Positions 28,864 through 32,955 of a stretch of DNA of 64,000 nucleotides are shown one piece after another; the first letter of the stretch is position 1; the number at the start of each line of letters is the position of its first letter. The stretch is taken from positions 1,612,001 through 1,676,000 of the forward strand of contig NZ_LT907782.1 of the NCBI RefSeq assembly GCF_900206265.1. The letters run 5' to 3'. Origin of the DNA: Nitrosomonas ureae. Its GTDB lineage: Bacteria; Pseudomonadota; Gammaproteobacteria; Burkholderiales; Nitrosomonadaceae. The translations under genes were made by a program, and so were the position numbers. The notes below the pieces were generated by a model, which was given only the letters and a program-made list of their open reading frames with translations, was not told the origin of the DNA and searched no databases.

Positions 28864-28967
28864 AATTCCATAAATTTAATAATTATTATTACTAATGGGA
28901 AAATAAGCCATCATGATTTGCGGCAATATTGCCCGCCTAATTTCAAACACCTGAGTTTTATAACCAC

Positions 28968-29372
28968 TCATCCTGGTAACAGCCACTTTGATATGATGAT
29001 AACTAGTTGCTCCGGATCAATTGGCTTGACTAAAAAATCATTCATACCGGCACTCCGGCATGAATCTCTATAATCCTGATCCGCATTGGCTGTTAATGCG
29101 ATAATCGATATTTTCGACCACTTCGGATTAGCCCTGATCATTTTTGTAGCCTCTAAGCCATCCAAAACAGGCATTTGAACATCCATCAATACACAGTCAA
29201 AATTTTCCTTACTTAACTCATCCAGTGCTTCTTGTCCGTTACTTGCAATCGATACGACAGCTCCATTATATTCGAGTAGCGCCTGGGCTACTTGTTGATT
29301 CAATTCATTATCTTCCACCACTAGAATAGTGCATCCCTTTAGTTTCAGGTCTGAGTTATTTATTATATTCAT
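28968..29372 (-). CDS. single-domain response regulator receiver (REC)
   Basis: 134-residue CheY-like receiver with no output domain. The acidic pocket is VVEDNELNQQ, the phospho-acceptor is Asp64 in DCVLMDVQMP, with Thr94 and Lys116 (VKPID) as the conserved switch residues. Its sequence style (LNQQ, LTANADQDYRDSCRSAGMND) is that of the REC domain in BarA-type hybrid kinases rather than CheY. It leads the REC-oxidoreductase-Hpt operon; 104 bp separate it from the oxidoreductase start. Confidence 0.9.
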   Translation of the reverse strand: MNIINNSDLKLKGCTILVVEDNELNQQVAQALLEYNGAVVSIASNGQEALDELSKENFDCVLMDVQMPVLDGLEATKMIRANPKWSKISIIALTANADQDYRDSCRSAGMNDFLVKPIDPEQLVIIISKWLLPG

Positions 29373-29577
29373 ATTGTGTTGGCTCGATTTACTACTTCCC
29401 TTACAGTTCCTGCTGTATCTGTCAATTCTTGTATAGCGATATAATTTTTTTATATGCGCAGGGCAGGAATAGAGAAAAATTCACTTGTAATTTCTACAAT
29501 ACAAACAAACATCAAATGAAACCTAATAAATACCCTCGTGACAAAAAACCAAAAAAATAAAATGCTAAAACGTATTA
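29373..29577. other. spacer between cysD relic and REC gene
   Basis: 205 bp without a gene. It should carry the promoter of the REC-oxidoreductase-Hpt operon. A/T-rich with no strong repeat seen. Confidence 0.4.
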
Positions 29578-29895
29578 CGACTTTGCATTCCTGAATACAG
29601 CGCCATCTTATCTTTTTACTCGAATCTGCCATGCTGCGCACAATTTCCTATCATCCAATTATTTGACTCGCTGATCCCAAAATACAATAACCTCAGGAAA
29701 ATTATGTGTCGCATCACAATGGAAATGGAAACCGCCCGGGACGAAATGCTTTTCTCAACTAAACACAATAAAACAGTAGCGACCTTCCCCGAAACATAGC
29801 AGCACAGGATTGACACATTCCGCCGCCACTTCACGCACAGTATGTATCGCCTCACTTTCCAGCGCATCAAAAGGAGTAAAGGCGCGATGATTCAT
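29578..29895 (-). pseudogene. cysD: decayed sulfate adenylyltransferase subunit 2 (cysD)
   Basis: Reading from an ATG at 29895, the frame gives FDALESEAIHTVREVAAE and NPVLL, matching the CysD N-terminus, then hits TGA (29755-29757). The same frame continues with KHFVPGG, then THNFPEVIVF.DQRV (to 29665), matching the CysD core around HNFPEVI-FRD-RV, then further stops, then RNAKS near 29580 matching the SRNA-Q segment. The ATP-loop SGGKDS is replaced by FGEGRY. Three or more in-frame stops and a lost start of the P-loop make it non-functional. It lies 85 bp after cysH, the normal place of cysD; no cysN follows. Confidence 0.85.
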
Positions 29896-29980
29896 TTTCT
29901 TTTCTCGACAAATAAAAATGATGCAAATTCTGGAGATATCGCTCTGACAAAAACAAACAGGGTATTGCAAATAACCACGA

Positions 29981-30679
29981 TTATTTTGATTGAACTATCT
30001 TTTCGGTGTGTAATCCGCATTCCTTGGTTTCCGGCATCTCCCACCACCAGCGACCGGAACGTATGTTTTCTCCCGGTGTAACAGCGCGCGTACAGGGAGC
30101 ACAACCAATACTGGGATAAAATTTGTCATGCAGTTTGTTATAGGGCACTTCATAGCGTTTGAGATATTCCCAAACTTCCGCATGGGTCCATTCCAGTAGT
30201 GGATTAATCTTTTGCATACGATTGTCCATATCATATGCAGACACGCTCAGGTTCGCCCGAGTTGTTGCCTGTTCACGTCTAATTCCAGTGACCCATCCTC
30301 GCTTACCTTGCAAGGCACGACGCAATGGCTCCACTTTACGGATGTAGCAGCAGTTTTTACGCAAATCAACGCTTTGATAAAAACCATTGACACCGTGCTC
30401 AGCAACATATTCCTCAACTTGCCTTACATTTGGAAAATAGATACGCAATGCCGTTTTGTAACGCTCTCGCACAGTTTGCATCAGATCATAAGTTTCTTGC
30501 GGCAAACGTCCGGTATCCAGACTAAACATTTCAATATCGATATGATGTCGATCAATGATGTCTGTCAGCACCATATCTTCAGCACCCAGGCTATTAGCAA
30601 ACGCTACCGGGGCATAATCACGCACAGTTTCAGTCAGAACCGCCACAACCTGATCAACTCTATGTTGCAAATTAATCAT
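29981..30679 (-). CDS. cysH: adenylylsulfate (APS) reductase CysH
   Basis: 232 residues; reduces APS to sulfite with thioredoxin in assimilatory sulfate reduction. Four Cys that bind a [4Fe-4S] cluster are present (Cys110-Cys111 and Cys193/Cys196), which marks the APS-type enzyme rather than the PAPS-type. The redox-active Cys221 lies in ECGLH. The ATP-loop analogue SLGAEDMV is at 30-37. It overlaps the DUF934 gene by eight bases. Upstream activation of sulfate would normally come from cysDN, but the local cysD is decayed. Confidence 0.96.
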   Translation of the reverse strand: MINLQHRVDQVVAVLTETVRDYAPVAFANSLGAEDMVLTDIIDRHHIDIEMFSLDTGRLPQETYDLMQTVRERYKTALRIYFPNVRQVEEYVAEHGVNGFYQSVDLRKNCCYIRKVEPLRRALQGKRGWVTGIRREQATTRANLSVSAYDMDNRMQKINPLLEWTHAEVWEYLKRYEVPYNKLHDKFYPSIGCAPCTRAVTPGENIRSGRWWWEMPETKECGLHTEKIVQSK

Positions 30680-31205
30680 TGAACGTACCTACAATGGAAT
30701 TTCCTTTGCGTTGCGCGCGTCGGAACAGGGGCAAAACCGGATCAAAAGAAGTCTGATAAACCTCAGAGAAATCACTGAGACCTTTTAGTGCATCTTCAAT
30801 CTTGCGATCCGGACGCGGCGCAAAAGCATCAAAACCAACCCGATGCATATAAAATAATTGATCACGCAATACATCGCCGATCGCCCGCAGTTCACCCTTA
30901 TAGCCGAGTCGTGCACGCAAGTTATACGCAATGGAATACCCCCGGCCATCCGAAAATTTCGGAAAATCAACCGCAATCACAGAAAATTTTTGCATATCAT
31001 CCTTTAAATCTTCCGCACGCTCATCACTAGCCAACCAAACGCCGATGTTCTCACGCTGCTGTAACGTTTCGCGTTGAGCTCGCCATACTTTTAGCGGAAC
31101 AATGACTTTTCCGGCTGAAACTATTATGTTCTCAGCAGTATCATGCTCCTGTAGCCGCAAGACCGTCCAATCGTCCGCAACGATGGTTTTATTTTTTATG
31201 ATCAT
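30672..31205 (-). CDS. DUF934 family protein of the cys operon
   Basis: 177 residues. The family occurs between cysI and cysH in many beta- and gammaproteobacteria; its exact role is unknown, commonly viewed as an accessory to sulfite reductase. Visible are VDFPKFSDGRGYS and LRARLGYKGELRAIGDVLRDQ, the conserved core. I take ATG 31205, seven bases after the cysI stop; the longer open frame to 31397 only overlaps cysI. No Cys ligands or membrane segments. Confidence 0.88.
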   Translation of the reverse strand: MIIKNKTIVADDWTVLRLQEHDTAENIIVSAGKVIVPLKVWRAQRETLQQRENIGVWLASDERAEDLKDDMQKFSVIAVDFPKFSDGRGYSIAYNLRARLGYKGELRAIGDVLRDQLFYMHRVGFDAFAPRPDRKIEDALKGLSDFSEVYQTSFDPVLPLFRRAQRKGNSIVGTFND

Positions 31206-31212
31206 ATCGATA

Positions 31213-32955
31213 TCAGAACCTGGGGGAATAATAAGGAACCTCGTACTGCGCAGGCTCCACGATGTGTTTGTCCGCAACCTTTTCTTCCTGAGCCATAAAG
31301 CCAGTAGCGTATACATGCTCTTTGAATGGCGCATGACCAATACGACGTACCGTTTCAATGAAACGCTCGGTTTCCATACGCTCACGCAGATACACATGAA
31401 TCAAGCGTTCAATAACTTCAGGCACCTGATTGAAAGTAAATGACGGACCAATAATTTTACTAATCGAACTGTCGTTGCCTTCCGCACCACCGATCGAAAC
31501 TTGATACCATTCGTCGTGATCTTTCTTCTCCACACCAGTGATACCAATATTGCCAATATGATGTTGCCCACAAGCATTCACGCAACCCGAGATGTTCAAC
31601 GTAATCTCACCGATATCATGCTGATAATCCAAATCTTCAAAACATTCGGCAATCACCTTTGCCAGCGGAATCGAACGAGCATTAGCCAAGGTGCAAAATT
31701 CCGCCCCGGGGCAACTAATAATATCGGTTAACATGCCAATATTAGGTGTAGTCAATTCATGTTCGGTCGCCTCTTGCCATAAACTAATCAAGTCTTTCTG
31801 CCTGACGTCGGCCAATACCAGATTTTGCTTATGCGTGATGCGCAATTCACCAAAGCTGTATCGATCCGCCAAATCCGCGACTGCTTCCATTTGTTCAGCC
31901 GTAGCATCGCCGGGGGCGTTACCCGGTTTTTTCAGCGACAGAACAACGATCGCATAACCCGGAACACGATGAGGTCTAACGTTACGCGACAACCAGTTCG
32001 AGAATGAGCGGCTATCCGCCTTGAACTCATTTAATTTCGAATCATGATCTGGTAATGTTTCATAAGACGGATCAGAAAAGAAAGAAGCAACACGATCGAC
32101 TTCCTCAATAGTTAATGTACCCGGACCATCTCTCAGACCAGCCCAATCCGCCTCCACCCGACGCTTAAATTCATCTATCCCAAGTGCTTTCACCAGTATT
32201 TTGATGCGCGCTTTAAATTTGTTATCGCGTCGACCATATTCGTTATACACACGCAAAACAGATTCGACATACGTCAAGATATGCTGCCATGGCACAAAAT
32301 CACATATTTCACTGCCAATGATCGGCGTCCGTCCCAATCCACCGCCGACTAATACCCGAAAGCCGATTTCACCTTGCGCATTCTTTATCACTGCCAACCC
32401 GATGTCATGCGCATAAATAGCAGCACGATCTTCTTTTCCACCACTGATGGCAATTTTAAATTTTCGCGGAAGATATGCAAATTCCGGATGAAAAGTACTC
32501 CACTGGCGCAAAATCTCCGCATAAGGACGTGGATCAACCACTTCATCCTGTGCCACACCGGCAAATTCATCCGAGGTAATGTTCCGCACACAATTCCCGG
32601 AAGTTTGAATAGCATGCATTTCAACCGATGCCAGATCCGCCAGGATATCCGGGGTATCCTCCAGTTTAAGCCAATTAAATTGAATATTCTGACGCGTGGT
32701 GAAATGACCATAACCACGATCGTACTTTCGTGCAATATGAGCAAACATGCGCATCTGCTTAGAAGAGATCAGACCATACGGTACTGCGATACGCAGCATA
32801 TAAGCATGGATCTGCATATACAAACCATTTTGTAGCCGCAGTGGAAGAAACTCCTCCTCACTCAACTCCCCTGAGAGGCGTCGACGCACCTGATCACGGT
32901 ACTGCATGACGCGCTCATTCACTATTTGCTGATCATATTCATCATAGCGATACAT
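31213..32955 (-). CDS. cysI: sulfite reductase hemoprotein CysI
   Basis: 580 residues, siroheme and [4Fe-4S] enzyme reducing sulfite to sulfide. The cluster ligands are CPGAEFC and CVNACGQH, the conserved C-x5-C and C-x3-C pair. Two ferredoxin-like halves are present (residues about 30-100 and 330-400). No cysJ flavoprotein partner lies here, so electrons may come from ferredoxin or another reductase. Together with DUF934 and cysH it makes the sulfur assimilation operon, read away from cysB. Confidence 0.95.
   Translation of the reverse strand: MYRYDEYDQQIVNERVMQYRDQVRRRLSGELSEEEFLPLRLQNGLYMQIHAYMLRIAVPYGLISSKQMRMFAHIARKYDRGYGHFTTRQNIQFNWLKLEDTPDILADLASVEMHAIQTSGNCVRNITSDEFAGVAQDEVVDPRPYAEILRQWSTFHPEFAYLPRKFKIAISGGKEDRAAIYAHDIGLAVIKNAQGEIGFRVLVGGGLGRTPIIGSEICDFVPWQHILTYVESVLRVYNEYGRRDNKFKARIKILVKALGIDEFKRRVEADWAGLRDGPGTLTIEEVDRVASFFSDPSYETLPDHDSKLNEFKADSRSFSNWLSRNVRPHRVPGYAIVVLSLKKPGNAPGDATAEQMEAVADLADRYSFGELRITHKQNLVLADVRQKDLISLWQEATEHELTTPNIGMLTDIISCPGAEFCTLANARSIPLAKVIAECFEDLDYQHDIGEITLNISGCVNACGQHHIGNIGITGVEKKDHDEWYQVSIGGAEGNDSSISKIIGPSFTFNQVPEVIERLIHVYLRERMETERFIETVRRIGHAPFKEHVYATGFMAQEEKVADKHIVEPAQYEVPYYSPRF

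Follow-up and report, generated by a model that had tools for sequence, protein, structure and literature searches.

The window is a stretch of 64,000 nucleotides (positions 1612001-1676000) of a complete 3.06 Mb Nitrosomonas chromosome, G000. On its minus strand, cysI, a DUF934 gene, cysH, the remnant of a cysD gene and a response-regulator gene follow one another, with the features below given in window coordinates.

31213..32955, minus strand: cysI, sulfite reductase, intact
30672..31205, minus strand: DUF934 gene (the open reading frame list puts the start upstream at 31397; homology runs from 31205)
29981..30679, minus strand: intact cysH for an APS reductase of the [4Fe-4S] type, with CC at residues 110-111 and CxxC at 193-196
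29568..29895, minus strand: cysD pseudogene, 5' third, approximately codons 1-113 of 301 (tblastn, DNA identity, four in-frame stops)
29789..29790, minus strand: 2-bp deletion within the SGGKDS codons (alignment to G078; common to G084)
29751..29754, minus strand: 1-bp insertion in an A run (alignment to G078; common to G084)
29716..29717, minus strand: junction of an 8-bp deletion (alignment to G078; common to G084 and G007)
29659..29661, minus strand: in-frame TAA stop 3' of the HNFPEVI block
29373..29567, minus strand: post-deletion sequence without cysN similarity, reaching the response-regulator gene
28968..29372, minus strand: response-regulator gene, which in relatives bounds on the far side the cysDN that is lost here (conserved gene order)

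A first-pass annotation of this DNA had called cysH and cysI intact, and both are. The operon CysH scores 264.1 bits against TIGR02055 (cut-off 235.3), has the CC and CxxC cysteines, and is 93% identical to CysH of N. ureae Nm13 (G007). In many relatives the response regulator is followed by a gene for an EAL-domain response regulator, which the window lacks at 28864-28967.

The same annotation had placed a decayed cysD at 29578-29895, at the end of the operon, and the relatives bear this out. Four of them (G078, G029, G028 and G025) carry an intact cysD-cysN at exactly this place, between the operon and the response regulator, with the gene order of G000. In a tblastn search, intact CysD of G029 matches the minus strand from 29895 to 29611 over residues 1-98 in one frame, with 49% identity and E = 1e-21 in a genome-sized search space. 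At the DNA level, the remnant aligns with the intact cysD region of N. supralitoralis (G078) at 78.3% identity across 429 bases (E = 2.5e-94), with the match extending down to approximately 29568. The annotated coordinates fit. The frame from the ATG at 29895 meets four stops down to 29560, in agreement with the annotated minimum of three. Judged as a functional CysD, the remnant lacks a full-length frame (approximately 300 codons), since only about 113 codons' worth are left with three frame lesions among them, and the nucleotide-binding motif SGGKDS, reported as lost, is broken by the 2-bp deletion near 29790/29789. The annotation had also read the CysD landmarks as lying in one frame. This is correct for both blocks, because the lesions of -2, +1 and -8 sum to -9, but not for the intervening sequence, which is frameshifted.

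The remainder of the operon copy, approximately codons 114-301 of cysD and the entire cysN, has been deleted. A search for CysN similarity in the gap between cysH and the response-regulator gene gave no match, and the spacer at 29373-29567 aligns with the same spacer of G007 (77.9% across 394 bases, some of which belong to the remnant). Repeats at the locus are chance-level pairs only, and promoter and terminator patterns occur no more often than at shuffle level.

A dead cysD and a missing cysN in the operon would fit a strain that no longer assimilates sulfate and relies on reduced sulfur. However, the genome has an intact, constrained cysD-cysNC pair elsewhere, in addition to intact cysH and cysI, and we consider such a loss very improbable. 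G000 encodes three PAPS_reduct genes, i.e., the operon cysH, the unlinked cysD and a second CysH-like gene; those outside the window, together with cysNC, are as follows.

Genome 535282-536178 (L086 7283-8179): second cysD, full-length and intact (NCBIfam CysD cut-off, motifs)
Genome 536178-538082 (L086 8179-10083): cysNC fusion, 634 aa (NCBIfam bifunctional CysN/APS kinase cut-off, motifs)
Genome 993977-994693 (L087:8978-9694): second CysH-like gene, with CC and CxxC cysteines

All nucleotide-binding motifs are present in the second CysD and CysNC, among them SIGKDS and the GTPase motifs, and the APS kinase domain of CysNC has an intact P-loop (GLSGSGKS). Substitutions by codon position (8/0/35 for the second cysD, 6/2/88 for cysNC) point to purifying constraint on both genes. 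No Sat-type ATP sulfurylase was found in the G000 genome. Most likely, sulfate activation runs through the predicted CysD/CysNC and feeds the operon cysH-cysI. The first-pass annotation had asked for another route to APS or a supply of reduced sulfur: another cysDN copy does exist, in the form of the unlinked cysD plus cysNC, a Sat enzyme does not, and reduced sulfur is not needed. A broken operon cysD therefore does not imply an inability to use sulfate, which guards against misreading the genome in that way.

We are thus highly confident, from the gene content and the comparison with relatives, that a redundant operon cysDN has decayed and that the unlinked cysD-cysNC is now the sole sulfate activator feeding cysH-cysI. 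The presence of the unlinked pair in the lineage would have made the operon ATP sulfurylase (cysD-cysN) redundant, and we infer that this redundancy caused its loss. Frameshifts would then have inactivated the operon cysD in an ancestor common to the N. ureae-type relatives, with piecemeal deletion of cysDN afterwards. The second pair would supply all APS, passing it to the intact operon cysH and cysI, and the kinase half of CysNC could convert part of this APS to PAPS. Direct use of APS by Fe-S reductases is established.

The relatives also date the decay. The 8-bp deletion is present in G000, G084 and G007, so that at least this lesion is older than their split, in line with the old divergence proposed by the annotation, while the -2 and +1 lesions occur in G000 and G084. 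Further loss differs by relative: G084 lacks the 3' part of the remnant and G007 the 5' part, G030 and G033 are down to the opening bases of cysD plus a small piece of cysN, and G031 has a different fossil comprising parts of cysN residues 31-120. In the remnant, first, second and third codon positions differ about equally often (10/10/8 for G000-G084 and 14/15/14 for G000-G007), whereas differences between the intact cysD genes of G078 and G079 are nearly all at third positions (6/4/51). The flat pattern indicates that no coding constraint acts on the remnant and speaks against its retention as a coding sequence. The operon cysD is a truly dead gene.

Persistence of the 5' piece with its ATG in G000 and G084 might suggest that the remnant has been kept for a new role behind cysH, for example as a regulatory RNA or a short peptide. 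Against this, an Rfam scan of window positions 29300-30100 returned no match, the substitution pattern is flat, and the 5' part is absent from G007, with nearly all of the remnant gone from G030 and G033; we regard a new role as highly unlikely. False frameshifts commonly arise in homopolymer runs and the +1 does sit in an A run, but the chance that an intact gene only looks broken through errors of sequencing or assembly is practically nil, given that identical lesions in separately assembled relatives rule this out, more than half of the cysD sequence has gone together with the whole of cysN, and the codon-position pattern is flat.

What is seen here is the ordinary decay of a redundant gene, but an unusually clear and well-preserved one, in which a common 8-bp lesion followed by relative-specific deletions forms a clear series of stages. 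It is also a natural case of how ammonia oxidisers resolve duplicated sulfate activation, and a genus survey of 37 genomes (G000-G036) places it in a wider pattern. The operon cysDN is kept in 25 genomes and lost in 10, with G022 and G014 undecidable at contig ends. All 10 losers have the unlinked cysD-cysNC set, compared to 8 of the 25 keepers (Fisher 3e-4, with kinship ignored). On a CysI tree, which includes 2 losers outside the second-set screen (G070 and G077), 7 changes are required to explain the losses, no fewer than 4 of them on well-supported branches, and loss of the operon cysDN after it had become redundant has probably occurred at least 4 times. Since a sulfate-dependent cell cannot lose both sets, the association by itself does not establish cause. 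A literature search on cysD in Nitrosomonas found nothing relevant.

Among known systems, the remnant is homologous to cysD of the CysDN ATP sulfurylase, as in E. coli cysDNC. Where relatives still carry the operon copy intact, cysN comes after cysD; in G000, by contrast, cysD has decayed to a pseudogene and cysN is gone. PMC4373884 describes the sulfate-activating complex of M. tuberculosis as the point where sulfate assimilation divides into the reductive cysteine branch and PAPS. Like M. tuberculosis, G000 combines cysD and a fused cysNC with a CysH that carries the CC and CxxC cysteines; unlike in M. tuberculosis, its cysH lies in a separate operon, which once included a cysDN as well, and a second CysH-like gene is present.

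The more interesting remaining matter is that of partial pathway replacements in relatives. The second CysH-type reductase is approximately 30% identical to the operon CysH and has orthologues of at least 78% identity in 24 other Nitrosomonas genomes. Two genomes, G013 and G024, have lost the operon cysH as well, leaving cysI-DUF934, and the second CysH-like gene is present in both; a search for operon-type CysH gave no match in G063, G064 and G083 either. It is conceivable, though we put this forward only tentatively and think it rather doubtful, that the genus repeatedly and stepwise swaps one assimilatory sulfate pathway for another: the operon cysDN would be lost first, then cysH in some lineages, while the unlinked cysD-cysNC and the second CysH-type reductase take over, possibly with a shift of substrate from APS to PAPS.

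Directly after cysNC in G000 lies a gene for a DHH/DHHA1-like protein (L086:10164-11123), and relatives of this protein, approximately 50% identical, adjoin APS kinase domains in G002, G017 and G026 as well. Its putative role may be to break down PAP, a by-product of PAPS use. Separately, in G029 (L068), G003 (L062) and G023 (L215) the APS kinase half of CysNC lacks the P-loop and other blocks, with the CysN half open and conserved. The idea that this half is degenerate in all relatives without the DHH gene proved wrong: degenerate in these three, it is intact in G028 and G031.
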